A stretch of 32,402 nt of DNA, taken from NCBI GenBank assembly GCA_013362315.1, contig JABFWL010000304.1, forward strand, positions 1 through 32,402. The letters are read 5' to 3'. Below, piece after piece: positions 1-25,200 of this stretch (within the stretch, counting starts at the first letter, position 1; each line of letters starts with the position of its first letter). The translations under genes were made by a program, and so were the position numbers. The notes beneath the pieces are model-generated. The model was given only the letters and a program-made list of their open reading frames with translations, searched no databases and was not told where the DNA came from. The DNA is from Catenulispora sp. (GTDB lineage: Bacteria > Actinomycetota > Actinomycetes > Streptomycetales > Catenulisporaceae).

Positions 1-3000
1 GTGGGCTGAGATTCCAGCACGGACAGCCGTCCTTCCCAGTGAGTCGGTGAGTCTGGCCCTGGTGATTCCGCTATCGGGCCCGGCCCGGCGGCGTGCGCCC
101 CGCGCACCGCGGTCGGATGCTCCTCGAGGATCCAGGCGGCCGCCTCCGCGACACTGGGCCGGTCGAAGAACAGCGTCGGCGAGACCGCGAAGCCCAGCTG
201 GTCCGAGGCTCGGACCGCCAGTTGCTTCATCGTCACGGATTCCAGTCCGTAGTCGAAGAACTTGCCCTTCGGATCGATCCGTTCCGGTGCTGTGCCGATC
301 ACCTCGGCGACGGCTTCGGTCAGCAGCTCGCGAAGCCATGGTTCGGTGTCTGCGTCGTCGGACACCGAGGCGGGCAGCGCCTCAGCCGGAACCGATGGCG
401 AAGCTTTCGGCACAGGCCTGTGAGTCTGCCCGGTCTCCGGTTCAGCTCCCGGCTCGACCGGGAGCCAATGGCGCTCGCGGGCGAACGGGTAACCCGGCAG
501 CGGCACCCGACGGCGCGGTCTGCCGCCGTGCAGCAGTTTCCAGTCGATTCCGGCGCCCCCGGCCCAGAGCGCCGCCACCCGATCGAGCCGGCCCTGTTCG
601 GTCAACGAACGCAGGTACTCGCGGCCGGCAGCATCGGACAGGTCCAGCACCGGACGATCCTCCGTGGCCGGGCCGAATCCGCCGAGCCGCGCTTCCGGCA
701 CCTGTTCGCCCGCGGCGAAGGCGCTCAGGACCCTGATCGCATCGCGCAGATCCGCCGCGACGAACGCCAGACGGACGGGCATCGGTTCCCGACCGGACTG
801 CAGGGTGAACGCGATGTCGGCCAGGCGCGGCGCCGCACCCCGCGCTTCGCCGGTCGTGCCGGTCGCGGCATCCGCGGGGACCACGAGCCGGCCGCGCAGC
901 CAGTCGGCCATCCGGGCCACGGTGGTCAGCGTCTCCGGCAGGCCCTGCTCCGCCAAGCCATAGCGTTGCGCGAGCCAGCCTTCCAGGACCGAGCGCGCGG
1001 CCGCGTCGAACCCGCAGTCCTCGAGCGGATCGTCCGAGCCGAGGTCGTCCGGTCCGACGCCGAGCAGTTGCTGAACGTGGATCAGCAGTTCCCGATCGAG
1101 TCCTGCCGCATCGGGCCGGGCCTTCAGCCCTTCCCCGGCCGGGACGAGACCGTCGAGGTGCGCCGCCAGCCGGCGGGCCGACTCGGCGAGCCGCTCGGGC
1201 GACTTCGCGCTGAGCGCGATGATCTGGTCCCCGACCGGCTCCTGGGGCACCGCCGGGGCGGTCAAGGACTCCAGGACCAGATGCGCGTTGGCACCGCCGG
1301 CCCCGAAGGAGCTGATCCCGGCGATCAGGCGGCCGGAGTCGGGCTGCCAGGCGGCCGCCTCCCGCTGGACCCGGAACGGCGTGCCGGAGAAGTCGATCTC
1401 CGGGTTCGGCTCCTCGGCGTGCAACGAGGGAACCAGAGTCCGGTGCTCCATCTGGAGGATGACCTTGGTGATCGCGGCGATGCCGGCGGCCGCCTCCAGG
1501 TGGCCGACGCCGGACTTGACCGAGCCGATCGGGATGCTCCGCCCGGCCGGGACGTCGGCCAGCGCGCGCCCCAGTGCGGCGATCTCGATCGGGTCGCCGA
1601 GCGCGGTGCCGGTGCCGTGCGCCTCGATGTATCCGATGTCGCCGGCCGCGACCCCGCCGACGCGCAGCGCGGTGGCGATCGCGGACGCCTGGGCCCGGGG
1701 ATCGGGCACCGTGTAGCCGTTGGTCTTCCCGCCGTGGTTGATCGCGCTGCCCCGGATCACCGCGCGGACGTGGTCACCGTCCTCGATCGCCTTGGCGAGC
1801 GGCTTGAGCAGCACCGCGCCGACGCCCTCCCCGGGCACATAGCCGTCGCCGCCGGCACCGAAGCTGCGGCACCGCCCGTCGGAGGACATGAACTCCGCGA
1901 GGCTCAGCTGCAGGTACTTACGGGGATGGACGGTGACGTTCACCCCGCCGGCCAGCGCCGCGTCGCACTCCCCGCCGGCGATGCTCGCGCAGGCGAGGTG
2001 CACCGCGGTCAGCGACGAGGAGCACATCGTGTCCAGGGCGATGCTCGGCCCGTGCAGGTCGAGGTGGTAGGACACGCGGTTCGCGATGGAGGCGTAGGAG
2101 GACACGCCCATCCGTCCGTCCGGCGCCATGGGCAACAGCTCGTAGTGGCCGTACATCACGCCGACGAACACGCCGACACTGCTGCCCGACAGGCTGGACC
2201 GGCTGTATCCGGCGTCTTCCAGCGCGTGCCAGGCGGTCTCCAGAAACAGCCGCTCCTGGGGGTCGAGCATGTCAGATTCTTTGGGGCTGATGTTGAAGAA
2301 GAGCGGATCGAAGCATTCGACGTCGTCGAGGAAGCCGCCCCACTTGGAGTAGCTGCGGCCCGGCCCGCGCTCGGCATCGTAGAAGCCGGCCAAGGGCCAG
2401 CGGTCGGGCGGGATCTCGGTGACGCAGTCCCGGCCGTCCTTGAGGTTGCGCCAGAATCCGGCGAGGTCACCGGCCATCGGGTAGCGTCCGGCGATGCCGA
2501 CGACCGCGATGTCGTAGCCCGATCCCGGCCGCTCCACCGGCGCGACGGAAGCGGCACTGCGGACGGCACGGGACGGCTCCGCGATCTCGGCACGGTCCTC
2601 GACGATCGGCTGCGGGACCGCCGACGCCCGGCGGGCGACGGCCGCGGCCGATCGGGCTGCGAGGTATCCGGCCAGTTCGTTCAGGGTGCGGTGCTCGAAG
2701 AAGGCCGTCTTGGGCAGCTCGCCGAAGTCCGGCTCCAGCCGCTTGGACAGCTGCATCACCATGACCGAGTCGATGCCGTAGTGCTCGAGTTCGGTGTCAG
2801 GGTCGATACGCGCCGCTGGGATGCGTAGCTCTTGTGCGAGCCGTTCGGTGAGGACGGATACTGCTTCCTCGCGTGTTCGCGCCACTGCTTCATCGCTGAT
2901 GACCTCGGGGGTGTGATCGGCCTCCTGCGGCACGAGCAGCCCCCGCACCTCGACCGGGTCTCCGTAAGCGACGACCGCGTGCGGGACACCCCAGCCGAGC

Positions 3001-6000
3001 GCCTCCTCGAAGGCGGCCAGCCCCTCGGCGCGGTCGAGCGCCGATACCCCGTCTTCGAGCACTATCTCTTGGGCCATGCCGCCGCCGGCCCACGCGGGCC
3101 AGCCGATCGAGAGCGTGACGCCGGATCCGCCGCGGGCTGCGCGGCGTCGTGCGAGGGCGTCCAGGAAAGCGTTCGCGTAGGCGTAGTCGGTCTGTCCGGC
3201 GTTGCCCGTCACGGCGGCGACCGAGGAGAAGTAGACGACGAAGTCCAGTGGGTCCTCGCGGGTCAGACGGTCCAGGACCAGGGCCCCTTCGACTTTCGCC
3301 CGCAGGACTTCGGCCACGTCGGCTTCCGGCTTCGCGCGCAGCAGGCCGTCGCGGGTGACGCCGCAGGCGTGCACGACGCCGTGGACAGCGCCGAAGCGCG
3401 ACCGGATCCGACGGAGTGCCTCGGCCATCGCTGTCTCGTCGGCGACGTCGGCACGCTCGAAGTGGATGCGCGCTGAGTCTTCAGCCCGGGCTGAGCGGCC
3501 GACCACGACGACTTCGGCGCCCCGGCCGGCGAGCCGGCTCGCCACCAGCGAGCCGAGGTAGCCGGTTCCGCCGGTGACGACGTAGGTGCGGCCGGCGTGC
3601 GACGCCGGGGCCGAAGGTGTGGCCTCGGAAAGCTCGCGCAGCCGCCTGGCCGACACCGCGCCATCGACGACGCGGATCTCGACCGGCTCGTCGGCGCTCG
3701 CGGCGGCGGACAGGACCTCCCAGTCCGGGCCGTCGGCGAGCGCCACAGTCTGGCAGCGCAGATCGGGGTTCTCCAGGCGCACGCTTCGGGCGAACGCGCC
3801 GAGGGCGGCCAGCGCGGGCTCGTCGGCGTCGCCGCGTCCGGGATAGCCGATCCGCACACCGACCGGCCCGGCCAGCCGGGCGTCCATCAGGGCCCTGCAG
3901 AGCGCGGAGGCGGCGTGGAAGGCGAACAGGTCGCCGGGCTCCCGCGCCGGGCCGGTGAGCAGCACGATGGTCGCGGGCGAGACGGCGGCCAGCAGACGGC
4001 GGTAGTCCTCAGGCGATTGGGGATCGAGGGTGTAGCGGCCGTCGCCGGTCCGGGCGAAGGCATCGCCGGGCACGGCCACGTCGGCCCCGGACACCATCGC
4101 GGACCGGCCTGCGGTCAGGTCGACGACCAGCATGGCTCCGGCCGCTTTGACCGCCGCACCCGGCCGGGGCACCGGCACCCAGACCGGCTCGAACCGGAGC
4201 ACCTGGTCCGAACCCGCGCCGTTGGCGACCGTGAGCCCGCGCAGTACGATCAGCGCCCTGCCGTCCTCGTCGGTCAGCTCCAGGTCCGCAGTGCCATCCG
4301 GGCTGGTCCGCAGCCGGCTGCGGCGAGCCGCTGCCAGGGATCCGTGGAGCTCACAACCGCGCAGCGCGTAGGGCACCCCGACCTCGGCGCCGGGTTCGTC
4401 GAGCCCGAGCGCGAGAAGGGTCTGCAAGGCGCCGTCGAGCAGCACCGGATCGATCTCGAATCCGGCCGGGGTGACCGGGGCGAGGTCCGCGTCGGCCCGT
4501 CCGGCGCCGAGGCGGACCCGGCGCAGCACCTGAAAGGCCGGACCGTAGTCGAACCCGTATTCGCGGAATCTTCGGTAGCACTCCTGCCCGTCGAGAACCT
4601 GCCGGTCGAGAACCTGGCCATCTGGCACCGGCTCGAGCAGCGCTTCGGCTGGACCTGCCGGCAGCAACACGCCCTCGACCGCGGGCTGCGCCTCGGCCGA
4701 ATCCGCGAGGTCGATCGAGAACCGCACACCCCGGCCCTCGGCCTGATAGACGACCTGGACGTTTCCACCAACAGGCAGCGGCCGACGCCAGCGCACATCT
4801 TCCATACGAGTCAGCTCGGAACGCCCGGCCCGGCGGACACCCTCCCGGGCGAGGGCGAGCGACCAGGCAGCTGCCAGGATCGGCCGGCCCAACACCACAT
4901 GGCCCGCGACAGCGGGGTCGTTCTCGGTCGGCTGGAATGAGAACGCCGGTATGGCGCCGTCCTCAGACTCCGACGGCATGGGCCGGTTCCAGTATTTCTC
5001 GCGGGCAAACGGATACGTCGGCATCGGAATACGACTCGCGCGCACACCACTGAACAGGACGTTCGCATCTGGAAGGCCGCCCCGCTCGTAGGCTCCGGCG
5101 GCCTCAGCCAATGCGGCGAGCGCGGCATCCGGGTCTTCGCCCGCCGCGGCCAGCCGCTGATGGACGGCGGCGAGTTCTTCGCGCGCGGACATCGTCGAAC
5201 CCGTGGTCAGCCGGCCCGAATCGCGCCACGTGTCCAGCACGGCCCGGAGTTCGGCCACGTCGCGGACCGCGAACGCCGCGCGCTCGGTGAAGTGCGCCCG
5301 CCCGACCAGCAAGGTGAAGGCGATGTCGGTAAGGCTGCGGGCGGCACCTTCACCATCGAGCCAGGACCGCAGATCCGCGATCCGCTCGGCCAGCGCCTCC
5401 CGGGTCTTGGCCGAGACCGGCACAAGCCGCGGCGCACTCAGCGTGCTCGACGTGCCCGGCCCGCTCAGCGCACCAGCCGACTCCCGCTCCGGACCCTCCT
5501 GCACCACCAAGTGCGCATTAGTCCCGCTGTACCCGAACGAGCTGACCGCCGCCACCCGCGGCCGCTCGGCACGCCGAGGCCACGCCACCGGCACCGTCGG
5601 CACGTAGAACGGCGTGTCCTGGAAAGCGATCCGCTCGTTCGCCGTCTCGAAGTGCAGGTTCGCCGGAATCACCTGATGCTCCAGCGCCAGCAGGACCTTG
5701 AGCAGCCCCGCGATCCCGGCCGCCTGACCGGTGTGCCCCAGGTTCGTCTTGATCGACCCGATCGCGCAGTACCCGCGCCGGCTGGTGTGTTCAGCGAATG
5801 CCCGGGTCAGCGCCTCGATCTCAATGGGGTCACCGAGCTGGGTGCCGGTCCCGTGCGCCTCGACGAAGTCGATCGCGTCGGCGCTGATCCCGGCCCGGCG
5901 GTAGGCGGCCTGCTGGACCGCGGTCTGCGACCGCGAGCTCGGGGCGGTGATGCCGTTCGTCTTGCCGTCCTGGTTCACCGCGCCGCCCAGGATCACGCCG

Positions 6001-6902
6001 CGGATGGTGTCCCCGTCGCGGACCGCCGCATCGTAATCCTTGAGCACCACCAGGCCCGCGCCCTCGCCGGGTACGAACCCGTCGGCGGTCCGGTCGAACG
6101 TGCGGCACCGGCCGGTCGGGGAGAGCATGCCGCCGTTCGATGCGGACAGGTAGAAGCCGGGTCCGACGAACAGGCAGACCCCGCCGGCCAGCGCCGTCTC
6201 GCACTCGCCGGCCGCGATGGCCTGGCAGGCCAGATGGACGGCGACCAGCGAGGAGGAGCACGCCGTGTTCAGCGTCAGGCTCGGGCCGTGCAGGTCCAGC
6301 AGGTAGGACAGGCGCGAGGCGAGGAAGGCGTTGTCGTTGCCGGTGAGCACGTGCACGTCGGAGTAGACGTCGCCCAGATCGTTGTCGACCGGGTAGTCAC
6401 TGGCCGGCGCGCCCGCGAACACGCCGAAGGACGCGCCGCGCACCCCCGGGCCGCAGTACCCGGCGTCCTCCAGCGCCGCCCAGCCGCACTGCAGGAAGAG
6501 CCGCTGCTGCGGATCCATCTGCTCGGCCTCGGTGCCCGAGAGGTTGAAGAACAAGGGGTCGAACTCGTCCGCGTCGAGCAGAAAGCCGCCCCATCGGGAG
6601 TTGGTGCGACCTGGAGTACGCGCGTCAACGTCGAAGAAGGCGTCGGCGTCCCAGCGCTCGCGCGGCACCTCGCGGATCGTGGACCGGCCCTCCTTCAGCA
6701 TCCGCCACAGGTCCCGGTAGGAGCGGCCGGAGCTGAAGTGTGCGGCCATGCCGATCACGGCCGTACGCCGGGCGGTCGGGGCGGCGGGGTGCGGCCGCGG
6801 TTCGGCGGCCGAGCGAAGCTCGCGCAGCCGTCGCTGCCCCTCGGCGGCCGAGATCGACTGCTCGCGGACCAACTGGAGCACCTGTGCGACCTCGCCGTTC
6901 AC
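1..6902 (-). CDS. Trans-AT type I PKS, N-terminal >2300 aa (3' partial, runs off left window edge): dock-KS4-DH-KR-ACP-KS5-[degenerate ACP]-ACP...
   Basis: Hand translation from GTG 6902 (GTGA overlap with the fkbH stop) stays in one frame to base 1 without a stop, which explains its absence from the ORF track. KS4 ~6768-5491 (LNTACSSSLVAVHLAC); DH ~4926-4200 (HVVLGRPILA, FDYGPAF, LDGALQT); KR catalytic part ~3595-2950 (VTGGTGYLG...YAYANAF); ACP YGIDSVMVM (Ser ~2768); KS5 ~2517-1264 (DTMCSSSLTAVHLAC); degenerate ACP ~1100-880; ACP YGLESVTMKQL (Ser ~239). No AT. Confidence 0.95.
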   Translation of the reverse strand, partial: MNGEVAQVLQLVREQSISAAEGQRRLRELRSAAEPRPHPAAPTARRTAVIGMAAHFSSGRSYRDLWRMLKEGRSTIREVPRERWDADAFFDVDARTPGRTNSRWGGFLLDADEFDPLFFNLSGTEAEQMDPQQRLFLQCGWAALEDAGYCGPGVRGASFGVFAGAPASDYPVDNDLGDVYSDVHVLTGNDNAFLASRLSYLLDLHGPSLTLNTACSSSLVAVHLACQAIAAGECETALAGGVCLFVGPGFYLSASNGGMLSPTGRCRTFDRTADGFVPGEGAGLVVLKDYDAAVRDGDTIRGVILGGAVNQDGKTNGITAPSSRSQTAVQQAAYRRAGISADAIDFVEAHGTGTQLGDPIEIEALTRAFAEHTSRRGYCAIGSIKTNLGHTGQAAGIAGLLKVLLALEHQVIPANLHFETANERIAFQDTPFYVPTVPVAWPRRAERPRVAAVSSFGYSGTNAHLVVQEGPERESAGALSGPGTSSTLSAPRLVPVSAKTREALAERIADLRSWLDGEGAARSLTDIAFTLLVGRAHFTERAAFAVRDVAELRAVLDTWRDSGRLTTGSTMSAREELAAVHQRLAAAGEDPDAALAALAEAAGAYERGGLPDANVLFSGVRASRIPMPTYPFAREKYWNRPMPSESEDGAIPAFSFQPTENDPAVAGHVVLGRPILAAAWSLALAREGVRRAGRSELTRMEDVRWRRPLPVGGNVQVVYQAEGRGVRFSIDLADSAEAQPAVEGVLLPAGPAEALLEPVPDGQVLDRQVLDGQECYRRFREYGFDYGPAFQVLRRVRLGAGRADADLAPVTPAGFEIDPVLLDGALQTLLALGLDEPGAEVGVPYALRGCELHGSLAAARRSRLRTSPDGTADLELTDEDGRALIVLRGLTVANGAGSDQVLRFEPVWVPVPRPGAAVKAAGAMLVVDLTAGRSAMVSGADVAVPGDAFARTGDGRYTLDPQSPEDYRRLLAAVSPATIVLLTGPAREPGDLFAFHAASALCRALMDARLAGPVGVRIGYPGRGDADEPALAALGAFARSVRLENPDLRCQTVALADGPDWEVLSAAASADEPVEIRVVDGAVSARRLRELSEATPSAPASHAGRTYVVTGGTGYLGSLVASRLAGRGAEVVVVGRSARAEDSARIHFERADVADETAMAEALRRIRSRFGAVHGVVHACGVTRDGLLRAKPEADVAEVLRAKVEGALVLDRLTREDPLDFVVYFSSVAAVTGNAGQTDYAYANAFLDALARRRAARGGSGVTLSIGWPAWAGGGMAQEIVLEDGVSALDRAEGLAAFEEALGWGVPHAVVAYGDPVEVRGLLVPQEADHTPEVISDEAVARTREEAVSVLTERLAQELRIPAARIDPDTELEHYGIDSVMVMQLSKRLEPDFGELPKTAFFEHRTLNELAGYLAARSAAAVARRASAVPQPIVEDRAEIAEPSRAVRSAASVAPVERPGSGYDIAVVGIAGRYPMAGDLAGFWRNLKDGRDCVTEIPPDRWPLAGFYDAERGPGRSYSKWGGFLDDVECFDPLFFNISPKESDMLDPQERLFLETAWHALEDAGYSRSSLSGSSVGVFVGVMYGHYELLPMAPDGRMGVSSYASIANRVSYHLDLHGPSIALDTMCSSSLTAVHLACASIAGGECDAALAGGVNVTVHPRKYLQLSLAEFMSSDGRCRSFGAGGDGYVPGEGVGAVLLKPLAKAIEDGDHVRAVIRGSAINHGGKTNGYTVPDPRAQASAIATALRVGGVAAGDIGYIEAHGTGTALGDPIEIAALGRALADVPAGRSIPIGSVKSGVGHLEAAAGIAAITKVILQMEHRTLVPSLHAEEPNPEIDFSGTPFRVQREAAAWQPDSGRLIAGISSFGAGGANAHLVLESLTAPAVPQEPVGDQIIALSAKSPERLAESARRLAAHLDGLVPAGEGLKARPDAAGLDRELLIHVQQLLGVGPDDLGSDDPLEDCGFDAAARSVLEGWLAQRYGLAEQGLPETLTTVARMADWLRGRLVVPADAATGTTGEARGAAPRLADIAFTLQSGREPMPVRLAFVAADLRDAIRVLSAFAAGEQVPEARLGGFGPATEDRPVLDLSDAAGREYLRSLTEQGRLDRVAALWAGGAGIDWKLLHGGRPRRRVPLPGYPFARERHWLPVEPGAEPETGQTHRPVPKASPSVPAEALPASVSDDADTEPWLRELLTEAVAEVIGTAPERIDPKGKFFDYGLESVTMKQLAVRASDQLGFAVSPTLFFDRPSVAEAAAWILEEHPTAVRGAHAAGPGPIAESPGPDSPTHWEGRLSVLESQP
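880..1100 (-). other. Degenerate ACP-like domain inside the KS5 post-KS linker (phosphopantetheine Ser replaced by Ala)
   Basis: DRELLIHVQQLLGVGPDDLGSDDPLEDCGFDAAARSVLEGWLAQRYGLAEQGLPETLTTVARMADWLRGRL; GFD[S] position is GCG (Ala) at plus 1002-1004. Flanked by IIALSAKSPERLAESARRLAAHL and RLADIAFTLQSGREPMPVRLAFVA. Confidence 0.78.
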
Positions 6903-8053: not shown

Positions 8054-9016
8054 CTAGATTTCCCAGAGCGTGACGATCCAGGCCGCCACAGGGCTGTTGT
8101 TGAGGACCAGTACGAGGTCGCCCCGGCCCAGGCCGCCCATGGACACCACGCGCTGCAGGTTGAGGACGACGTCCATGGCTCCGAGGTGGCCGACGTCGGC
8201 GAGATGGACCCGGCAGAATCGGTGGATCGGCAGGTCCAGGGTCTGCTCGTAGAAGTCGAAGGCGCTGTTCGTGACGTTCTGCATCACGGTCGCGCCGACG
8301 TCGGCCTTGGTGACCCCGGCGTCCGCGAGCACGCCGTCGACCAGCGCGCTGAGCCGGTGTCTGCTGTGCATGGCCAGCTCGAAGCTGTACCGGTCGATGG
8401 AGCGGCACTCCTCGCGCCACTCCTGCTGGCCCGCGCTCTTGTAGTCGACATAGAACAGGTCGTGGAAAGTACCGTCGGTCTCCTGCCGGTGCGCTCGCAG
8501 CACCGGCCGGCCGCCGCGCACGACGGTCATGGCGTAGGCCCCGTCGCCGATGACGGTGACCGGGTAGCGGATCCGGAAGGCACCGGTCGGCAGGCTGGCG
8601 AAGGTGATCAGGACGCTCTCGCGGGACGGGTCGGCGATCAGCAGGTCGCGGGCGAGCGCCCACGCGGCCGAGGAGCCGGCACAGCCCAGTCCGTCGACGG
8701 TGAAGGCGAAGGCGTCCTTGACCTCGCCGAGCGCCTGGGCCTTGCAGACGTCGGACCCGATCAGGACGTCCGGGGCGCGCGGCCCCACCATGATCATGAC
8801 GTCGGGGTTCCCGCCGTGCTCGGCGAGCAGCTGCCGGCAGGCCCGGCCGGCCAGGGAGCCCACGTCCGTGTCCTCGAACACCCCGACCGTGCGCACCCCG
8901 GCCGTCTGCAGGAACTCCAGTCCCTGCGGCCCCAGCTCGGACAGTTCGGGCAGCTCGCCCACGGCGACCCGCCGCTGCGGCAGCAGGCAGCAGATCTCTC
9001 CGATGCCGATCGTCAT
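8054..9016 (-). CDS. Divergent 3-oxoacyl-ACP synthase III (KAS III/FabH-like)
   Basis: Cys loop FTVDGLGCAGSSAAWALARDLL, VIGDGAYAMTV, C-terminal VMQNVTNSAFDFYEQ...VHLADVGHLGAMDVVLNLQ...LVLNNSPVAAW. KAS III fold pattern is clear, but the FabH HQAN-like position reads MQNVTN and the GNTS-like position reads GHLG. Confidence 0.85.
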   Translation of the reverse strand: MTIGIGEICCLLPQRRVAVGELPELSELGPQGLEFLQTAGVRTVGVFEDTDVGSLAGRACRQLLAEHGGNPDVMIMVGPRAPDVLIGSDVCKAQALGEVKDAFAFTVDGLGCAGSSAAWALARDLLIADPSRESVLITFASLPTGAFRIRYPVTVIGDGAYAMTVVRGGRPVLRAHRQETDGTFHDLFYVDYKSAGQQEWREECRSIDRYSFELAMHSRHRLSALVDGVLADAGVTKADVGATVMQNVTNSAFDFYEQTLDLPIHRFCRVHLADVGHLGAMDVVLNLQRVVSMGGLGRGDLVLVLNNSPVAAWIVTLWEI

Positions 9017-10113
9017 CGCCCCACCCCCATCGCGCGATCGGCCAGCACGAGCTGGCAGATCTCAGTGCTGCCCTCGATGATCTCCATGAGCTTGGCGTCC
9101 CGGTACGCCCGCGCCACCACGCCCCCCTCCCGCGCCGCGGCCGAGGCCAGCACCTGAACCGCCCTCGCAGCACCCTGCGCCGCCGCCCGCGAGGCGACGT
9201 ACTTGGCCAGCACGGCCCGCGAGACCTGGTCCGGCGACCCGGCGTCCCAGCATCGGCTGGCGTCCTCGCAGACCAGGGTCGCGGTGCGCTCGGCGACGTA
9301 CAGGTCCGCCAGGTGGCGGGCGACGAGCTGGTGCCGGGCGATCGGCACACCGGCTTGCTCCCGGCTGCGCGCGTGTTCGGTGGCCGCGTCCAGGCAGGCC
9401 CGCAGGATGCCGACGCACCCCCAGGCGACCGACAGACGCCCGTAGGTCAGCGCGATCGTGGTGAGCATCGCCAGCGAATTCCCGGCCGCGCCGAGCAGGT
9501 TCTCGCGGGGGACGCGCACCGCGTCGAGCGTGACCGTGGCGTGCCCGGCGGCCCGGCAGCCCAGCGGCGCGGGAACCGGATCGATCCGGACGCCCGGGGC
9601 CGTCGCCGGGACGATCACCGCCGCGCCGCCGTCGCCGTACCGGCCGAACACGACGACCAGATCCGCGTACGCCGAGGCCGTGATCCAGGTCTTGACCCCG
9701 TCGACGACCAGGCTGTCGCCGTCCTCGCCGATCCCGGTGGACATGGCCGACAGGTCGCTGCCGGCGTCCGGCTCGCTGAACGCCACGGCCACGAGCTCGC
9801 CGTCGGTCAGCCGGCGCAGATACTGCTCGCGCTGGGCGCGGTCGCCGAGCCGCCGGATCGTCCAGGCCCCCATGCCCTGCGAGGTCATCACGCTTCTGAG
9901 CGAGCTGCACAAGGAGCCGACGTGGGCGGTGAGGCGCCCGCACTCCCGGCCGGTCAGGCCGAGCCCGCCGAAGCCGGTCTCGACCTCCGGGCACAGCAGG
10001 CCCTTGCCGCCCAGGCCCCGCAGCAGGTCCACGGGGATCTCGCCGGCCAGGTCCCATTCCGCGGCGGAATCGGCGACCGCCTCGGTCACGATCCCCGCCA
10101 GGTCCTCAGGCAT
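9013..10113 (-). CDS. fkbI: Acyl-CoA dehydrogenase-like (FkbI-like)
   Basis: LVAVAFSEPDAGSDLSAMSTGI, DSLVVDGVKTWITASAYAD, YRDAKLMEIIEGSTEICQLVLADRAMG are acyl-CoA dehydrogenase signatures. Overlaps fkbJ and the KAS III gene at its ends. Confidence 0.95.
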   Translation of the reverse strand: MPEDLAGIVTEAVADSAAEWDLAGEIPVDLLRGLGGKGLLCPEVETGFGGLGLTGRECGRLTAHVGSLCSSLRSVMTSQGMGAWTIRRLGDRAQREQYLRRLTDGELVAVAFSEPDAGSDLSAMSTGIGEDGDSLVVDGVKTWITASAYADLVVVFGRYGDGGAAVIVPATAPGVRIDPVPAPLGCRAAGHATVTLDAVRVPRENLLGAAGNSLAMLTTIALTYGRLSVAWGCVGILRACLDAATEHARSREQAGVPIARHQLVARHLADLYVAERTATLVCEDASRCWDAGSPDQVSRAVLAKYVASRAAAQGAARAVQVLASAAAREGGVVARAYRDAKLMEIIEGSTEICQLVLADRAMGVGR

Positions 10114-10381
10114 CGGCGGCTTTCCTCAGCCGCAGCACCAGGTCGGTCATGGCGCTGATGGTGCGGAAGTTGTCCATCGCCAGGTCCTCGCGCTCAACGA
10201 CGACGTCGAAGGCCTTCTCCACGAAGACCACGAGCTCCATCGCGAACAGCGACGAGACCACGCCGGAGGCGAACAGGTCCTGGCCGGGCTCCCACTCGGT
10301 CTTCGTCCGCTCCACGAGGAACTCGTGCAGCCGGTGCTCGATCCCGGCGGCCGACAGTCGTTCGGAGGCCGATTCAGGCAT
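10106..10381 (-). CDS. fkbJ: Discrete acyl carrier protein (FkbJ-like)
   Basis: 91 aa; LHEFLVERTKTEWEPGQDLFASGVVSSLFAMELVVFVEKAFDVVVEREDLAMDNFRTI matches the free-standing ACP of methoxymalonyl cassettes. Preceded by AGGAAAAGGGATCGCATC-ATG. Confidence 0.92.
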   Translation of the reverse strand: MPESASERLSAAGIEHRLHEFLVERTKTEWEPGQDLFASGVVSSLFAMELVVFVEKAFDVVVEREDLAMDNFRTISAMTDLVLRLRKAADA

Positions 10382-10496: not shown

Positions 10497-11159
10497 CTAG
10501 AGCTTGCGCGCCAGGGTGATGCCGTCGGCCATCGGGATGAGCGACAGCTCGACGCGGTCGTCGCCGCGCAACGCGGCGTTGAGCTCCCGGATCGCCAGCG
10601 TGTCCGGGTCCTGCGCGGCCGGATCGACGACCCGGCCGAAGAACAGGGTGTTGTCCAGGACGATCAGGCCGCCGGGCCGCACCAGGGTCAGCGCGCGTTC
10701 GAAGTAGTCGGGGTATCCGGTCTTGTCGGCGTCGACGAAGACCAGGTCGAAGCTGTCCGGGCCGGGATCGGTCAGCAGCGCGTCGAGGACCTTCGCGGCC
10801 TCCTCCAGGCGCAGCTCGATCCGGTCCTGCAGTCCGGCACGCGCCCAGTACCGCCGGGCGATGCGCGTCCAGCGTTCGCTGACGTCGCAGGTGATGAGGC
10901 GGCCGCCCGGCGCCAGGGCGCGCGCCATGCACAGCGCGCCGTAGCCGGTGAACGTGCCGAGCTCCAGCACCAGCCGGGCGTCCACGAGCCGGGTGAGCAG
11001 GGCCAGCAACTGACCCTCCTCCGGCATCGTGACCATCGCGGCCATGGCGCTCATGCCGGCCGTCTCGGCCCCGAGGTCCCGCAGGATCTCGTCCTCGCGC
11101 AGGGAGACGTCGCGCACGTATTGCCGCACTGCGTCGTCGACCGCCACCTGGCCCGCCAT
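10497..11159 (-). CDS. fkbG: SAM-dependent O-methyltransferase (FkbG-like, hydroxymalonyl-ACP O-methylation)
   Basis: LVLELGTFTGYGALCMARAL, FDLVFVDADKTGYPDYFERALTLVRPGGLIVLDNTLFFGRV is class I O-MT (CCoAOMT-like). ATG at 11159 shares one base with the fkbK stop; the listed 286-aa ORF start at 11357 overlaps fkbK and is too long. Confidence 0.92.
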   Translation of the reverse strand: MAGQVAVDDAVRQYVRDVSLREDEILRDLGAETAGMSAMAAMVTMPEEGQLLALLTRLVDARLVLELGTFTGYGALCMARALAPGGRLITCDVSERWTRIARRYWARAGLQDRIELRLEEAAKVLDALLTDPGPDSFDLVFVDADKTGYPDYFERALTLVRPGGLIVLDNTLFFGRVVDPAAQDPDTLAIRELNAALRGDDRVELSLIPMADGITLARKL

Positions 11160-12019
11160 CAGCGGGCCGCGTATTCGTAGAAGCCGCGGCCGGTCTTGCG
11201 GCCGTAGTCGCCCTCGGCGACCTTGCGCAGCAGCAGCGGGGAGGGGCTGCAACCGGCGTCGCCGGTGCGCTCGTGCAGCACCCGCAGCGAGTCCACGAGG
11301 TTGTCGATCCCGATCAGGTCGGCGGTCCGCAGCGGTCCGGTCGGGTGGCCCAGACACCCCTCCAGGAGCGCGTCGACGTCCGCGACCGTGGCCCGGCCCT
11401 GCTCCACGATGTCGGCCGCCGCGTTGATCATGCGGTGCAGCAACAGGCTGGTGACGAAGCCGGGCCCGTCGGCCACGACGATCGGCCGGCGCCCGAGTCG
11501 CTGGGCCAGTGCCCTGACGGCGGCCAGCGCGGCGTCGCCGGTCTGCGGCCCGCGGATCACCTCGATGGTCTTGATCAGCGAGGGCGGGTTCATGAAGTGG
11601 ACGCCGACCAGATCCTGCGGACGGGGCACCACCTCGGCGAGCTCGGCCACCGGGATCGACGACGTGTTCGTGATGCGCAGCGTGCCGGGCGCGGCCGCGT
11701 CCGCGATCGCGCAGTGCAGTTCGACCTTCGTCTTCAGGTGCTCGGTGACGGCCTCGATGACGGCGGTCGCGCCCTCGACGCCCTCCAGGGATGCCGCCGT
11801 GGTCAGCTCCCCGGGCGCCACCCCGGGCGGCAGCACCCCCATCAGCTGGGCCTGCCGGAGATGGGCGCGGATGTCGCCCGGCGCGGCGGCGAGCTTGTCC
11901 GGGTCGACGTCCAGCAGCCGCACCGGGACACCGTGCCCGAGCGCGAGTGCCGTGATGCCGGCTCCCATGACCCCGGCCCCGATCACCGCGAGCGGGCCGT
12001 CGCCCGCACCGCCGGTCAC
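11159..12019 (-). CDS. fkbK: 3-hydroxyacyl-CoA dehydrogenase-like, hydroxymalonyl-ACP pathway (FkbK-like)
   Basis: N-terminal LAVIGAGVMGAGITALALGHGVPVRLLDVD Rossmann motif; VGVHFMNPPSLIKTIEVIRG; PIVVADGPGFVTSLLLHRMINAA. Sits in a cluster with the other fkbGHIJ-like genes. Confidence 0.92.
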   Translation of the reverse strand: MTGGAGDGPLAVIGAGVMGAGITALALGHGVPVRLLDVDPDKLAAAPGDIRAHLRQAQLMGVLPPGVAPGELTTAASLEGVEGATAVIEAVTEHLKTKVELHCAIADAAAPGTLRITNTSSIPVAELAEVVPRPQDLVGVHFMNPPSLIKTIEVIRGPQTGDAALAAVRALAQRLGRRPIVVADGPGFVTSLLLHRMINAAADIVEQGRATVADVDALLEGCLGHPTGPLRTADLIGIDNLVDSLRVLHERTGDAGCSPSPLLLRKVAEGDYGRKTGRGFYEYAAR

Positions 12020-15757: not shown

Positions 15758-16191
15758 TTCCAGGAGAGCGAGGGGTCGATGGACTGCACTGGCACGTCAA
15801 GCTGCTCGGCGATCGTGAGGAGGTCGAGGTAATCCCAGAGCTCGGCGAGCTTGGAATCGCTGACGGAGTAGATCGCCACGCCGTCGGCGGCGATCGGCCG
15901 CCCGGTCGCGACCGCGCCCATGAAGGAGCCGCGATGGATGCCGGTGAGGCTGTAGCGGATCGCTATGCGCGCGCCGCGTGCCATCCAGTCGTCGACGGTG
16001 AACCGCAGGTCCGGGAAGGCGTCGGTGTAGTGGGTGACGTAGCGTGCGAACGCCGGCACCCCGGTGAACTCGCCCGATCTGCCGTGGCGGACGAAGCGCG
16101 GGTGGATCACCCGCTCGACGGCATCCAGGCCGCCGGGCTTCCACAGTTCGTTGTACGCGGTCAGGACCCGCAGGCTCTGATCCGACATCAT
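15754..16191 (-). CDS. SnoaL-like polyketide cyclase/isomerase-fold protein
   Basis: Sequence AYNELWKPGGLDAVERVIHPRFVRHGRSGEFTGVPAFARYVTHYTDAFPDLRFTVDDWMARGARIAIRYSLTGIHRGSFMG is typical of the SnoaL/NTF2-like family. The listed ORF starts at TTG 16206; ATG 16191, preceded by GGAGACC, looks a better start. Confidence 0.85.
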   Translation of the reverse strand: MMSDQSLRVLTAYNELWKPGGLDAVERVIHPRFVRHGRSGEFTGVPAFARYVTHYTDAFPDLRFTVDDWMARGARIAIRYSLTGIHRGSFMGAVATGRPIAADGVAIYSVSDSKLAELWDYLDLLTIAEQLDVPVQSIDPSLSWK

Positions 16192-16206
16192 CTGGTCTCC
16201 GATCAA

Positions 16207-19200
16207 TCAGCCTTGTGCGTCCAGGAGGGCGTAGGTGTCCTCGACAGAGAGCTCGCCGCTGGCCAACCGCTGTAGCAGGTCGAGTTCCTCCTCGTGCGCG
16301 GAAGGTTCCGGTGCGGACGGGACCGGGCCGGCTGCCCCCGACGAGGCAGGTGCCACCAGGTGCTCGGCGCAGATGAAGTCCGCGAGGTCGCCCAGCGTCG
16401 GGTAGTCGAACAGCGCGGTGGTCGGCAGGTCGATCTCGAGCCGCGCGTTCAGGGACTTGACCAGTTCCACCAGGATGATCGAGTCGACGCCGTAGTCGGT
16501 GAACAGCCGGTCCGGATCGAGTGCGGTGTCGGAGCGGCCGAGGCTCTCGGAGATGCTCGCGGCGAGCGCGTCCAGCACCGATTCGCGGGCGTCGCCGGAC
16601 GGCGATCGCCGCGGTTCCGGCTCGGCCCATACCGGAGCCGATGCCGGTGCCGGTGCCGGTGCGTCCGCGACCGGGGCCGACGCGCGCTCCGCGACCAGCG
16701 TCTGGTGGCCGAACGCCGCTCCGAACGAGCGCGCCTGGGCCGCCGTGCTCGGGAAGCCGGCGGCGGCCAGAATCCGTTCCCAGGTCGGCACGTCGGCCAC
16801 CGGCGATCCCGGCAGGCGCAGGCCGTCGGTCGCCCGCCACCAGCCTTCGAGCAGGCCGAAAGTGCAGGTCTCGAAGACGTTGAAGGCGGTCGGCTCGACC
16901 ACCACGAGCCGTCCGCCAGCGGCTGTCAGCCAGGCGACGTGCTCTGCCGTGACGCGCAGGTCGCCGGTGGCGTGCAGGACGTTCGCCGCGACGACGACGT
17001 CGAACCCACCCTGCTCGAACCCCTGCCCGGCCGGGTCGGCCTCGATATCCAGCCGGCGGAAGGCGATCGGCAGGCCGCGATCGCCGAACGACCGGCGGCC
17101 GTGCCGCAGGAAGCCCCGCGAGACGTCCGTGTAGGTGTACTCGACGCGATCGGCCCAGGCCGCCAAGGCGTCCAGGACGGCACCGGTCGTGCCGCCGGTT
17201 CCCGCCCCGACCTCGAGCACGCGCACCTTCGCCCCGGCCGGCTGCGCTTGTACGTATCCGGAGACGGCCGCCGCGGCGAGCTCGTTGAGCCGGCCGGACA
17301 ACGGATCGCCCCGGTAGATGCCCTCCACCTTGGCCGCGGACCCGGCGGGGAACATCACCTCGGCCGCCTCGACCTCGCCGGTCAGCAGCCGGGGGTAGTC
17401 GCGCGCGCAGTGCTCGAGCAAGTCGACGTGCGCTGATACGGCCGGGCGTTCGGTGCGCAGTCGTCGGGCTCGGGCGTCGAGGTCCTGCTCGGCTGTACGC
17501 GCCAACCGCTCGGTGGCGGCCAGCTCATCCCCGATACGGTCCAGCAGACCGCGATCGGCGAGGATGTCGAGCATTGTGGTCCACAACGGCCCGTGAGCAG
17601 GGGCGATGCCGAGGTCGGTGGCGAGCCGGTCGCCCGGATCGCCGAACGCGCCAAGACGCTGGACGGCGCGGGCGATCATGGCGACGCAGAGCTCTTCGAG
17701 TTCGCGGTGCGCCTCCCGGAGCTCTGGGTCGACGATGTCCGGCTCGCCTCCGCCCACGGGTTCCAGGCCGACACTGTCCGGCTTGCGTTCGCCGGCGGGC
17801 TCTACGCCAACCCTGTCCGGCTCGGCTCGGCCGATGGATCCGGTGTCAACGCGGCTTGGCTTTCCTGCGCCGACGGGATCGATGTCGAACCGGTCCAGGA
17901 TGCGCGCCTCGGCCTTGATCGCCATGACCTGCGGCAGGCCGGCGGCGATCACCGTCTCCAGGGCGCGCATCCCCTCGGCCGTGCCGATCGAGTGCACGCC
18001 CACGGCGCGCATCCGGCGGCGGTACCCCGCCTTGGCCACCACGCCGGTCTCGCCCCAGTAGCCCCAGTTGACGATGTGGACCGGCACTCCCTCGTCGGCG
18101 AGGTATCGGCCGTAGGCGTCGGAGAAGGTGCAGGCCGCCGCGTAGTTCGACTGGCCCTCGTTGCCGCTGAAGGAGTTCGCCGAGGAGAAGATCACGAACT
18201 GCTCCAGCGGCTCCCCGCGCACCGCCGCGGCGAGCGCCGCCAGGCCGCGCACCTTCGGGGCCAGGGCCGCGTCGAGGAGTTCGAGGTCCATGTTCGCGAT
18301 GCGGGTGTCCCGCAGGACGACCGCGGAGTGGAAGACCCCGTGGATCGGCCCGAACCGCGCTTTCGCAGTGGCCACCGCGTCGACGACGGCGCTTTCGTCC
18401 GCGATGTCGACGGCCAGGTAAAGGGCCTGACCCCCGGCGTCCCGCAGGTCACGCACCTGCTCCCGGATTCGCGCATCGGCAGGTCTGCGGCCGAGGATCA
18501 CGAGGTTCGCGGCGGCGTGGCGGGCGAGATGCAGGGCGAGTTGCGCGCCGATCCCCCGGGCTCCGCCGGCGATCACGTACGTGCCACCGGCGCGGAACGG
18601 CGGGCGGTCCGGCTCGGTCGCCCGGGCCGGGACCAGTTCCCGCGCCCAGCGGCGCCCGGCACGCAGCGCCACCTCGTTCCCGCGCGGGTGCGCCGGCTCC
18701 TCGATGATGGCCTGGACCACGTCCGCTCGGCTTCCGTCGGCCAGTTCGCGGGCGTCGATGTCCAGGCACCGGACGCGCCACGCCTGGTGCTCCTTGGCCA
18801 GAGATCTGAGCAGCCCGAACAGGGTGGCGGCCAGGGGTCTGGTGCGCTCTGCCGCGTTGACCGCGTGTGCGTTCGCGGTGACGGCCACCAGGTCGAGCGG
18901 ACGGTCGCCCGCGTCGGCTTCCAGGAGGAGCTTGATCACCCGGAACAGGGCTCGAACACCGTGGTCCTGACTTCGTTCCACCGTCTCGATCGACGGGGCG
19001 CCGAGGTCGTGGGAGCCGTCATCGAGGCCGCCGAGGAAGTAGACCCGGCGCGGCGGCTCACCGGCGGTGAGTACGCCGGCCAGGTCGTCGCGGCCGAGGC
19101 GGACCACCGCGGCGTCGGCACCGTGGCGGGCCGCGATCCGCTCCGCCAGCGAGTGGTCGTGGTCGGTCGCGACGACGACCACCCGGCCGCCGGGCGCGGC

Positions 19201-22200
19201 GGGGATGTCCATGTCCCGGACCGGTTCGAGCTCACGCCAGGTGGGCCGGTAGAGTTCGACGCGCGGGACCGCCTCCATCTTCCGGTAGGTGAATTCGTCG
19301 ATCACGACGCAGGGCTGTCCGCCGCTGTCGGTGATGATCACGGCGTACTTGTCCGTCTGCTGCCTGCGGACGCAGGCATAGGCGGTCCGCGGAATGGGGC
19401 CGAGGACGCTTACCCGCTCCATGGCGAAGGGAACGAACGGTCGCCCGTCACCGTCGTCGGGGATGAGCGCGCCGACCGTCTGAATCGCGCCATCGAGCAT
19501 GCCCACGGGGAGCGTGGGATCGTCGCCGTCGGAGCATTCGAGCCTTGCGATGCCCTCGCCGGCTCCGACACCGATCTCCTTGAGGGTGCGGAAGAGCGGT
19601 CCATAGTGCGTCTTCGTTCTCTCGAACTCCTCGTAGTACCCGCTCACGGAAACTTCGCGGGTGCACCGCGCGCGCAACGCGGCGATGTCCACCCGCTGCG
19701 CCTCGGCCGGCTCACGGCTCGCCGCACCGCGGGTGTACAACAGCGTCGCGCCGTCCGGGCCGGTGCCGCGGACCTCGAAGGTGAGCTTGCCCGGGGCCTG
19801 CTCGGCGATCAGCACCTCGATGCGCCGTTCCGCCTCGACGAACACCGGACGCAGCCAGACGGCCTGGTGAACGGTGATCGGCGCGCCTTCCGTCGCCCGG
19901 TGGAGCGCCTGGATCGCGAGCGCCAACTGGACCGCGGCGGGTAGCAGGGGCTGGCCGTCCACCACGTGATCGCGCAGCACGGGGTCGTCGGGGCGCAGTG
20001 TGTGAGGCACGGTCAGGGGCAGCTTCGGCGGCTTCGGCGGCTTCGGGATTTCGCGGCCTGGCAGTGGATCCGGCAGGGCCGCGGGCTTTGCGAGGGCGGT
20101 CCTGTCAGGTGCTTGCCCGTCGGGCGCTTGCTTGTCAGGCGCGCTGGCAGAACGCGGCTGGGGAACCCAATAGGTCTCCGTCGAGAACGGGTATGTCGGT
20201 AGCACGATCCGCCGGCATGACTCACCGCTGTAGAGCGCCTCCCAATCCACCGCCGCACCCGTGAGGAAGTCCGCAGCCACGTCGGCGAGGGGGCCGTGAT
20301 CCTGCCCGGCGTTCTCGCGCCAGTCCCAGATCTGCCGGCTGAGATCTCGGTGGTCCGTAGCGACGAACACCGCCCGCTCGGCGAAGTGCGAGCGACCCAC
20401 CCCCAGCGTGTAGGCGACGTCCCGCCAGTCGTGGTCGGAGCCGTGCTGGTCCAGCCAGTCCCGCAGCCGGGCCAGGGACTCCCCCAGCGCCTGCCGGGTC
20501 TTCGCCGAGACCGGCACCAGCCGCGGCCGGCCCGGCGTTTCCGGCGGCCGCTCCGCCCGCGCCGGGGCCTCGGCCACGACCGTGTGCACGTTCGTGCCGC
20601 TGAATCCGAACGAACTGACCGCGGCCAGTCGGCCCTGACCGGGCTCCGCGGTCCAGTCGCGCAGCCGGGTGTTCACATAGAAGGGCGTCTGGTCGAAGGG
20701 GATGTAGGGGTTGAGCGCGTCCACGTGCAGCGTGGGCACCAACTGGCGGTGCTCCAGGCACAGCAGGGTCTTGATCAGCCCGGCGATCCCGGCAGCCGTC
20801 AGGGTGTGGCCCAGGTTGGACTTCACCGACCCGACCGCGCAGTAGCCGCTGCGGTCGGTGTGGCGCCGGAAGGCGTCGGTGAGCGCCTCGATCTCCATCG
20901 GGTCGCCGAGGCGGGTCCCCGTGCCGTGGCACTCCACGTAGCCGATCCGCGCGGGGTCGATCCCGAAGCGCTCGTAGACCTCGAGCTCCAGCGCGGTCTG
21001 CGACGGGGCGCTCGGCGCGGTGATCCCGTTGGTCCGGCCGTCCTGGTTGGTCCCGGAGCCGAGGATCACGCCCCGGATCGGGTCGCCGTCCCGCAGCGCC
21101 TGAGCCAACCCCTTGAGGACGACCGCGCCGACCCCCTCGCCGGGGACGAAGCCGTCGGCGGAGGAGGCGAACGCCCGGCAGCGGCCGGTGGGCGAGAGCA
21201 TCCCGGCCTTGCTGGCCAGGACGTGCAGCTCCGGAGTGAACAGAGCGGCCACGCCCCCGGCCACGGCCATCTCCGCACGGCCCGAGCGGATGGCCTCGCA
21301 GGCCAGATGCACGGCCAGCAGCGAGGAGGAGCACGAGGTGTCCACGGCCATGCTGGGCCCGGTCAGATTCAGGAAGTACGACGCCCGCGAGGCGAGGATC
21401 GCCGGGTGCGTCCCGGTGAAGGTGTAGCCCTCGAGATCCACGCCGCGCGACCGCAGCAGGTGGTGGTAGTCGCCCGTGCTGGTGCCGACGAACGAGTGGA
21501 CCGCCAGGCCGTCCAGCGCCCGGTCGCTGTAACCGGCGCTCTCCAGCGCCCGCCACGCCTCCATGAGGTAGAGCCGCTGCTGGGGATCCATCAGCCGGGC
21601 TTCCCTCGGCGAGATACCGAAGAAGTCGGGGTCGAACTCCGCGGCATCGTCCAGAATCGAGCCCCACTTGCTGTAGGTCTTGCCCGCGGCCTGCGGATCG
21701 GGGTCAAAGAAGGCCTCGACGTCCCAGCGATCGCCCGGGATCTCCCGTACCGAGTCGCGCCCGGCGACCAGGTTGGCCCAGAACCGGTCGAGGTCGGGGG
21801 CGTCGGGGAAGCGGGCCGACATGCCGATCACGGCGATGCCCTCTGCCATCTCCGCCGCGACGACGGGCGCCTGAGCCGGTGCCGGGTCGACCCTGACGAT
21901 CTCCGGCGGGTGGACCGGCGGGTGGACCGGCGCGGTCACCTCGGCGCACAACTGTTCGACGTGGGCTACCAGACGTCGCAGGGTCGCGTGGTTGAAGAAG
22001 TCCGTCGGCCTCAGGTCCACGCCGAGCTGCCGGTTGACGCGATCGACGATCTCGACGGCGAGGATCGAGTCGATACCGAAGTCCAAGTGTGGGACATCGA
22101 GGACGAACTCCTCGGGTGGTACCTCCAGCACCGCCGCCATGGCCGAGACGATGATCCCGTGCACGTCCGGCATGTTCCGGTCGGCCACAGGCTCCGGCGT

Positions 22201-25200
22201 CGGTGCAGGCTCCCGTTCTGGCTCCGGTATCACCTCCAGGGGGACAGCGGCGTGCCGCACCACCTCCGGAACCCAGTAGCGGTCGCGGGCGAACGGGTAG
22301 AGCGCCAGCGACAGCCGGCGAGCTGCGGGTCCGGACCATGGGACATCCACCCCGGCGGCCCAGAGCCCAGCCAGCTTCTCCAGCTCCCCGGCGCGGTGCA
22401 GCCCTTCGACGAACGCCTGTCCGGCGCTGCCGTCGAAGAGCTCTGCCAGGGGCGTCTCGTCCCCGACGACGCGTCCGCGCGCGATTCCGGCCGGCGACTC
22501 GCCGGCGGCGAACCCGCGCAGGGTGCGCACCGTGTCGGCCAGGTCCCGGGCGACAAAGGCAAGCCGCTCGGCCAGCGGTTCGCGGCCGGCCCGCAGGGTG
22601 AAGGCGACGTCCCGCAGCGCCACGCTGTTCGAGGTCGCGACGGGCAACGGGGTGAGCAGCGCCGCCAGGTCGCGCAGGCTGCACCAGCCGTTCAGGCCGG
22701 CCGTGGAGATGCGCGCGCCGGTCTGCTCGCCGTACCGCGCCACGAGCCAGGAACGCGCGAACTGGTCAAGGCCCAGCGACTCCAGGTCGTCTTCCAGGGA
22801 GAAGTCCTCCCCCGGCACGCCGAGGATCTCGCCCAGCAGCGACCGCAGCACCGGCACCGGGTCCCCGGCCGAGTCTGGAGCCGAGTCCGGGGCCTGGGAC
22901 CGGTCCGCAGCCGATACCGGATCGAGCCGGTCAGCGAGCCGCCCGGCCAGCTCCCCGAGCTGCTCCTCAGTACGCGCCGAGAGCACGATCAGCTCCCCGA
23001 GCCCGCCGCCGGCATTCGCCTGCGCCGGCCGCGCGGCGACAGCCGGCCGGTACTCCTGGACCACCACGTGCCCGTTGGACCCACCGGCCCCGAACGAGCT
23101 GATGATCGCCACCCGCGGCCGCTCGGCCGGGCCCGCCGGCCACGCCTCGCGGACTCGCTGAACATGCAGGCGCCCGTCGAGGTCCAGGTGCGGGTTGAGT
23201 TCCTCGGCGTGCAGGGACGGCACCAGTTCGCCGTGCCGCATCTGAAGCAGCACCTTGGTGAGCCCGGCGATGCCCGCCGCCGACTCCAGGTGCCCGATGT
23301 TCGACTTGATCGAGCCCACCGGACACGACGGCCCGCGGCGCCCGCCGAGGTCGTCGAAAGCCTTGCGCAGCCCGGCGATCTCGATGGGATCGCCCAGCGC
23401 CGTGCCCGTGCCGTGGGCCTCGATGTAGCCGACGTCCTGCGGTTCGACCCCGGCGGCGCGCAGCGTGCGGCTGATCAGCTCGGCCTGGGAGACCGGCGTC
23501 GGGACCGTGAAGCCGTTGCTGCGCCCGCCGTGGTTCACCCCGGTCGCCCGGATCACCCCGTAGACGTGATCGCCATCGGCCAGCGCCCGTCGCAGCGGCT
23601 TGATGAGCACGGCGCCGACGCCTTCGCCCGGCACGTAACCGTCGCCGCCGGCCCCGAAGCTTCGGCAGCGTCCGTCGGTGGAGGCGAAATGGTTCTGGCT
23701 GAGCTGCAAGTACCGGTTCGGATGCAGGATCGCGTTGACCCCGCCTACCAGGGCCTCGTCGCAGTCCCCGAGCCGGATGCTGGAGCACGCCAGGTGCAGC
23801 GCGGTGAGCGAGGAGGAGCACATGGTGTCGAGCGCGATGCTGGGACCGGTGAGGTCCAGGCAGTAGGAGACCCGGTTGGCGACGGAGGCCGACAGGGAGG
23901 CGGGCACGAAGCCCTCGGCCTGCAAGCCCGGTTCGGCGCCGTACAGCTGGTATTGGGCGTACATGACGCCGACGAACACGCCGACGCACCGGCCGTCCAG
24001 CGACCGGCGGGTGTGTCCGGCGTCCTCCAGCGCGTGCCAGGCGGTCTCCAGGAACAGCCGCTCCTGCGGGTCCATCTGGCGGGCTTCCCGAGGCGGGATG
24101 TTGAAGAAGAGCGGGTCGAAGCGGTCCAGGTCCCGCAGGAAGCCGCCCCACTTGCTGTAGCCGGTCGCGGGACGCTCGCCGGACGGGTCGAAGTAGCGCT
24201 CCTTGTCCCAACGCTCCGGCGGGATCTCGGTGACGCAGTCGCGGCCGCTTCGCAGGTTGCGCCACAACTCCTCGAGGGTGTCGGCCATCGGGTAGCGGCC
24301 GGCCAGGCCCACGATGGCGATCGGCTCCGATGCCGCGGAATCCATCGATGCGACCGCGTCCGGTTCGGCAGAAGGCTTGGGTGGGACGGTAAGCGCGGCC
24401 CGGGGCGGGGCAGCCTGCGCATCCGGTCCATCCGGTCCATCCGGTCCATCCGGAACGTCCGGCGCGCCAGGGGAATCCGCCACGCCATCACCGCCCGCAG
24501 GCGCCCCGAACGTGGCGGCCTGCACGGGAAATGCAGCCTGCAGATACCCGGCCAGTTCCGCCACGCTCCGGTACTCGAAGAACAACGTCTTCGGCAGCCG
24601 GCCGAAAACGGTCTCCAGCTCCGCGGTCACATTCATGGCCATCACCGACTCGATGCCGACCTGGTCGAACCGGCGGTGCAGCGGCAACCGCTCGACCGGG
24701 AGTTTGAGCTCGTCAGCGACCAGGCGGCGCACATGGGCCAGCAGGGCCGGCGCGGTACCGGAAGCAGCCACGGGCACCGCCTGTTCGATCCGGCTCTGGC
24801 CCGACGGCGGAGCGGGGATCGCGCTGTTGTCCGGCACTCCGCAGGAGCTCAGGATCTGTGGACGATGCCCGAAGAAGACCGCCAGCTCCGGTTCGGCCCC
24901 ACCGAGCGCCGTCTCCAGCAGCCGCAGGCCGCGCGCCTGCGGCAGCGCGATCCAGCCGAGCTCCCGCCGGGCCGCCTGCTTGGCCGACTCGCCGATGTCC
25001 ATTCCGCCCGATTCCCACAGCGGCCACGCGATCGACACCGTGCGTCCGGACCGCTCGCCCGCCCGCCGCATGTCCTCCCGCCAGGCGGCGAAGGCGTCGA
25101 GGAAGCCGTTCGCGTAGGCGTAGTCGCTTTGCCCGGGGATGCCGATCACCGAGCTGGCCGAGGAGAAGAGGGCGAAGAAGTCGAGCTGGTCGCCGCGGGT

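Follow-up and report, generated by a model that had tools for sequence, protein, structure and literature searches.

A KAS III-like protein encoded within a methoxymalonyl-ACP cassette: a proposed trans-acyltransferase for AT-less polyketide synthases

Introduction

The methoxymalonyl-ACP cassette of a Catenulispora polyketide cluster contains, between fkbI and fkbH, a gene for a divergent KAS III-like protein. We suggest that this protein is probably a thiolase-fold trans-acyltransferase that moves methoxymalonyl or hydroxymalonyl units from the discrete carrier FkbJ to the acyl carrier proteins (ACPs) of polyketide synthase (PKS) modules without an acyltransferase (AT) domain. Since it has lost the residues needed for bond formation, travels with extender genes and recurs in AT-less assembly lines, it has probably replaced the usual loader with an unrelated one. 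We also think it fairly likely that KAS III-fold trans-acyltransferases form a class that delivers ACP-bound methoxymalonyl and hydroxymalonyl to AT-less modules, replacing the AT fold in full trans-AT PKSs, in NRPSs with a single KS-ACP-reductase module, and in cis-AT PKSs from which one AT has been excised. If so, assembly lines of several kinds have dispensed with the AT fold, and extender loading was solved twice, with unrelated folds.

To our knowledge, the loading of unusual ACP-bound extenders onto AT-less PKSs is documented in few cases, all of which use the AT fold. If our reading is correct, the AT is not the sole solution to building-block selection, and a ketosynthase fold does the same job; three genomes would then hold a natural design in which an AT was removed and a KAS III cassette added to place methoxymalonyl or hydroxymalonyl in a chosen module, and the fkbI-KAS III-fkbH signature could be used in genome mining to predict the entry points of such units. 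In the literature searched, in which subscription papers were thinly covered, no KAS III protein was linked to methoxymalonyl or hydroxymalonyl loading, and an earlier description is possible.

A sixth gene in the methoxymalonyl-ACP cassette

The window is the whole stretch of DNA analysed, 32,402 nucleotides of contig JABFWL010000304.1. Its PKS genes and cassette lie on the reverse strand:

3..6902 (-), downstream PKS with AT-less KS modules, continuing past the contig end
6899..8041 (-), fkbH, glyceryltransferase/phosphatase (TIGR01686, 341.8 bits)
8054..9016 (-), KAS III-like protein of 320 aa, ATG start; proposed trans-acyltransferase for methoxymalonyl-ACP
9013..10113 (-), fkbI, acyl-CoA dehydrogenase family; its stop codon overlaps the KAS III start (ATGA)
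10106..10381 (-), fkbJ, discrete acyl carrier protein, presumed extender donor
10497..11159 (-), fkbG, O-methyltransferase; absent from most distant cassette relatives
11159..12019 (-), fkbK, 3-hydroxyacyl-CoA dehydrogenase family
16207..29421 (-), upstream PKS of 4404 aa with three KS and no AT
29414..32401 (-), upstream PKS fragment (ER-KS) without AT; runs off the contig

In the direction of transcription, AT-less PKS genes are followed by genes for a SnoaL-like protein, a carbamoyltransferase and a flavoprotein, then by fkbK, fkbG, fkbJ, fkbI, the KAS III gene and fkbH, and finally by a further AT-less PKS gene. The stop codon of fkbI and the start codon of the KAS III gene overlap as ATGA, similar overlaps join fkbJ to fkbI and fkbK to fkbG, and only 12 bp separate the KAS III stop from fkbH. 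The open reading frame scores 32.2 bits against Pfam ACP_syn_III_C and 34.3 bits against the NCBIfam fabH model, for which the cut-off is 292.1; the product is thus KAS III-like, but far from FabH. Coordinates and scores together bear out the initial annotation, made from the sequence of the window, which had placed a divergent KAS III gene between fkbI and fkbH. The same annotation had listed fkbI, fkbK and fkbG as also present and had described the system as AT-less; homologs of FkbG, FkbJ and FkbK were indeed found, and the window's PKS genes encode six KS and no AT domain.

The three genes between the upstream PKS genes and the cassette, all on the reverse strand, encode the SnoaL-like protein (15754-16206), the carbamoyltransferase (13982-15757) and the flavoprotein, which has a weak likeness to the CmlS halogenase (12165-13985); together they suggest a decorated, carbamoylated product. 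In the fragment at 29414-32401 (-), the ER is fused straight to the KS, with no carrier protein in between.

Active site and predicted fold

The active site was compared in a 74-sequence alignment, which places the following codons:

8681..8683 (-), nucleophile Cys112 (GLGCAGSS), aligns with ChlB3 Cys113
8279..8281 (-), Gln246, in place of the catalytic His of FabH HQAN; invariant in the family and its sister clade
8186..8188 (-), His277 (GHLGAMD), in place of the catalytic Asn of FabH; aligns with ChlB3 His296
8171..8173 (-), Asp282 (GHLGAMD), aligns with ChlB3 Asp301

The alignment confirms the residues read earlier from the sequence, namely an intact GLGCAGSS loop, MQNVT at the HQAN position and GHLG at the GN position. 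What had been overlooked is that GHLGAMD also provides Asp282, five residues after His277. Arg148 and Arg150 are invariant and may contact the carboxylate or the pantetheine. The Cys-His-Asn triad of FabH, with its HQAN and GN motifs, is thus absent, its His and Asn being replaced by Gln246 and His277. All 25 family members and all three sister proteins have the Cys-His-Asp triad, and in every one of them the FabH His has become Gln. ChlB3, NatS and 9z38 show the same Cys-His-Asp set in this alignment, while DpsC has Ser and FabH has Cys-His-Asn. For ChlB3 the triad has been assigned as Cys113-His296-Asp301, and C113A abolishes transfer; the CerJ mutants C116A, C116S and H295N are all dead (PMC9573744).

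The structure of the protein, which the initial annotation had proposed to predict, comes out as a confident thiolase fold (pLDDT 90.4, pTM 0.90) that matches NatS, ChlB3, DpsC, CerJ and FabH about equally. By established KAS III chemistry, the loss of the decarboxylative-condensation residues, together with a charge-relay pair acting on the Cys, argues for acyl transfer, which would run via a Cys-bound intermediate.

A family with a fixed slot

In addition to the window protein, we found 24 orthologs with 57-88% identity, from many actinobacterial genera, in the fkbI-KAS III-fkbH slot; this many orthologs with the same slot and the same residues cannot be chance. A genome scan contributed 18 relatives, from Streptomyces, Micromonospora, Sphaerisporangium, Kibdelosporangium, Amycolatopsis, Umezawaea and others, and further ones came from genomes of the same genus and of Streptomyces. 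Culturable bearers include Streptomyces capoamus JCM 4253 and Streptomyces sp. ISL-10. As far as the contigs reach, the order fkbK-(fkbG)-fkbJ-fkbI-KAS III-fkbH is fixed in every ortholog with a visible neighbourhood. Most of the distant relatives have cassettes that lack fkbG and should for this reason make hydroxymalonyl-ACP.

In the tree, the family has a support of 98/98, the family together with a sister group (38-40% identity) 100/99, and FabH 100/99. Family and sisters are separate both from FabH and from the ChlB3/NatS/DpsC clade, although the deeper joins are unsure because of long branches. The phylogeny, likewise proposed by the initial annotation, thus puts the protein outside FabH, as suspected there, but does not support membership in a CerJ/ChlB3 clade (the CerJ sequence itself is not in the tree). 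The annotation had regarded a housekeeping FabH position as fatal to a special function; this identity is ruled out by the residues, by the fabH score of 34.3 against 292.1 and by the separate clade. Membership in the ChlB3 clade is ruled out by the tree, though the triad agrees. An FkbH tree, built to see whether KAS III entered the cassette once, was poorly resolved.

The sister clade (L025:9200-10162, L030:9681-10631 and L031:9419-10363) has a GLGCxSLT loop, and its genes directly follow an AT-less KS-ACP-C module of hybrid NRPS/PKS genes. Among these three loci an fkb cassette is nearby only in L030, so that a different unit may be used in L025 and L031. The Umezawaea sister gene is adjoined by its own divergent fkbJ, fkbI, fkbH and fkbK.

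Association with AT-less modules

KAS III cassettes occur with AT-less KS modules in the window, in one trans-AT cluster with 13 KS, in 15 NRPS/KS-ACP-TR clusters and in the sister clade, while KAS III-free cassettes occur with cis-ATs or with a Laj12-like discrete AT next to fkbK. As a control set, we compared 30 Streptomyces FkbH loci from a search of 296 genomes; KAS III is present in eight of them and absent from 22. Seven of the eight KAS III-bearing loci have an AT-less KS and no AT in the flanks first read, whereas an AT is present in all 16 KAS III-free loci examined (in G056, only after the region was extended). Fisher's test gives p = 2.3e-5 for this association, a value that ignores kinship, the seven loci representing two cluster families. 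Beyond the Streptomyces set, the association also holds in the window, in ten further NRPS/KS-ACP-TR loci and in three sister loci; it nonetheless draws on few independent cluster families.

Some observations count against our reading. All four KS modules visible in G004 carry an AT, which speaks against the AT-less rule, although the contig is incomplete. The clusters in L012 and L014 are minimal, consisting of an fkbK-J-I-KAS III-H cassette and one A-PCP gene with neither KS nor AT nearby, and speak against a function as a PKS loader. The contig of G022 ends within the neighbouring KS.

A widespread type of small cluster (L008-L011, L015-L020 and L022) combines an NRPS, one AT-less KS-ACP-reductase module, a KAS III hydroxymalonyl cassette and an acyl-CoA-ligase-like gene. 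The cassette of L012, from a record titled Rhodococcus rhodnii, is nearly identical to that of Kibdelosporangium aridum, and the species label is probably wrong.

Discrete ATs and KAS III in trans-AT clusters

The Laj12 AT (697 aa) is required for lajollamycin production and has been proposed as the methoxymalonyl-ACP loader (PMC10831120), and OzmC is cited as the methoxymalonyl-ACP AT of oxazolomycin (PMC6164871). In two KAS III-free trans-AT clusters, G117 and G167, the genes are arranged as for lajollamycin: after an OzmM-like AT-AT protein comes a separate AT (open frame of 702 or 728 aa) that adjoins fkbK, J, I and H, with fkbG on the opposite strand. The KAS III-bearing trans-AT clusters G220 and G204 have an OzmM-like AT pair with GASLG and GHSLG motifs, approximately 45 kb from the cassette. 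A Laj12-like discrete AT was found neither in the G220 genome, where the best match is 38% identical and lies inside a large PKS, nor in G204, where the best match (54%) lies inside a 9521-aa frame. Among the trans-AT clusters compared, KAS III and a Laj12-type discrete AT were thus not found together.

The window's own genome, an assembly that is 81.6% complete, likewise yielded no Laj12-like discrete AT; as the window contig ends inside a PKS at both sides, such an AT could be encoded elsewhere in the cluster. Another contig of the same genome (G000:C119, locus L173) encodes an OzmM-like AT-AT-ER protein and AT-less modules. It may be part of the window cluster; no end overlap between the two was found.

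An excised AT in three genomes

The three closest relatives of the window protein (87-88% identity) are from Streptomyces sp. ISL-10, a record titled Frankia sp. R82 and Actinocorallia sp. API 0066, and wherever the upstream PKS is visible their KAS III cassette stands beside a cis-AT module. On another contig of ISL-10 (G014:C50), there is a KS-DH-ACP module without AT. In the alignment, the KS-AT linker is followed by the post-AT linker, with the entire AT, approximately 290 residues, gone from between them, and the flanks are nearly identical to those of the AT-bearing module beside the cassette. The module, with its linkers kept, was found at three places:

L157:1565-2205 (G014:C50), excised-AT module
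L191:3-713 (G016:C15), excised-AT module
L192:1-432 (G015:C149), excised-AT module

Because the same excision junction recurs in three genomes, an assembly error is unlikely. In each of them the excised-AT module and the cassette are on different contigs; we assign them to one putative cluster on account of the PKS sequence that they have in common and of where the contigs end. Loci L005-L007, which had been taken as a contradiction of the AT-less rule, lose that standing through the excised-AT module. The module in itself is a natural example of an AT-less unit inside a cis-AT assembly line.

Proposed function and alternatives

We infer the chemistry, the donor and the acceptor as follows. 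Cys112, activated by the His277-Asp282 pair, would take methoxymalonyl from FkbJ as a covalent thioester, or hydroxymalonyl in clusters lacking fkbG, and would then pass the acyl unit to the ACP of an AT-less PKS module. The unit would be transferred rather than joined, since the FabH His and Asn of decarboxylative condensation are replaced. The protein would thereby take the role that AT domains have in cis-AT PKSs and OzmC and Laj12 in oxazolomycin and lajollamycin synthesis. Of the hypotheses in the initial annotation, that of a CerJ/ChlB3-like enzyme for extender delivery in an AT-less system finds strong support for its functional half, in view of the Cys-His-Asp triad, the fixed slot, the AT-less modules and the excised AT, but not for its phylogenetic half, as the protein forms a lineage separate from the ChlB3/DpsC/NatS clade.

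In its fold, Cys-His-Asp triad, His-Asp spacing and missing FabH His, the protein agrees with ChlB3, CerJ and NatS, of which CerJ works on malonyl units and ChlB3 carries an acyl group over from a PKS to an ACP. It differs from them in identity (~19-24% in fold alignments), in its separate clade (CerJ not being in the tree), in its Cys loop (GLGCxGSS in the family, QGCNGMF in the ChlB3/CerJ/NatS type), and in the proposed substrate and acceptor, an ACP-bound extender and a PKS module. Like OzmC and Laj12, it accompanies an AT-less PKS and an fkb-type cassette. The gene for Laj12 adjoins an fkbK homolog; the product is lost when it is deleted, and the enzyme is the proposed loader of methoxymalonyl-ACP. 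However, OzmC and Laj12 are FabD-fold ATs with a GHSxG serine, whereas the window protein has a thiolase fold and a Cys nucleophile. Our best reading of these features is a protein that would be OzmC/Laj12-like in role and ChlB3/CerJ-like in mechanism, and a member of neither group. The canonical methoxymalonyl-ACP module (FK520, geldanamycin, bafilomycin, oxazolomycin) has the same fkbG, H, I, J and K homologs, but is described as five genes without KAS III (PMC6395733), while here a sixth lies between fkbI and fkbH.

An acyltransferase with a different acceptor (a hydroxyl, an amine or another discrete carrier), or an enzyme that edits misloaded FkbJ by hydrolysis, is in our view rather unlikely. 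The triad is the same as in CerJ, a sugar malonylating enzyme, and the L012 and L014 cassettes have only an A-PCP protein and no KS; yet the AT-less KS association and the AT-excised module need a loader of PKS ACPs, and editing would leave the absence from AT-bearing clusters unexplained. We give still less credence to a condensing role, in which the protein would join an acyl or aminoacyl thioester to the FkbJ-bound unit through a C-C bond, in starter extension or tetronate-like off-loading. FkbH, an ACP and a KAS III do constitute the tetronate core (PMC7489565), and in L012 and L014 the protein is the sole KS-like one near an aminoacyl carrier. However, every member has Gln and His where FabH has its His and Asn, a KS with Cys-His-His motifs is already encoded in most clusters, many clusters have a reductase domain for release, and other FkbH-linked KAS III proteins, possibly tetronate enzymes, are elsewhere in the tree. 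Off-loading, raised by the initial annotation, also fits poorly with the wide range of host clusters.

The same range tells against the annotation's starter-loading hypothesis. DpsC and other KAS III-like proteins do select starters, but the gene follows the extender cassette across clusters with differing first modules, including NRPS-initiated ones, and a PKS starter loader is highly improbable. Just as improbable is a passenger or non-essential relic of housekeeping FabH: the remote resemblance to FabH fits, but not the separate clade (100/99), the invariant active site, the conserved slot and the overlapping start and stop codons. A trans-acyltransferase that loads extenders remains our preferred reading.

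The tetronate KAS III proteins, for instance Mad16 in a glycerate-utilisation operon, are also KAS III-like and linked to FkbH and an ACP, but act on glyceryl-ACP, while in the present cassette the glyceryl unit is processed further by FkbK and FkbI. The window operon, with both fkbI and fkbK, does not match a tetronate-type operon, which lacks these oxidation genes. The comparison with tetronate pathways drawn in the initial annotation is not supported: fkbK, fkbI and fkbJ are all kept, many clusters off-load by a reductase, and the family is distinct from the FkbH-linked KAS III proteins of L149-L156, which served as a stand-in in a tree with no confirmed tetronate sequence, and which do not group with the window family. 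In these Streptomyces loci, FkbH genes lie next to other KAS III-like genes with a Cys or Ser nucleophile plus His and Asp, on different branches of the tree; they are possibly glyceryl or tetronate-like systems.
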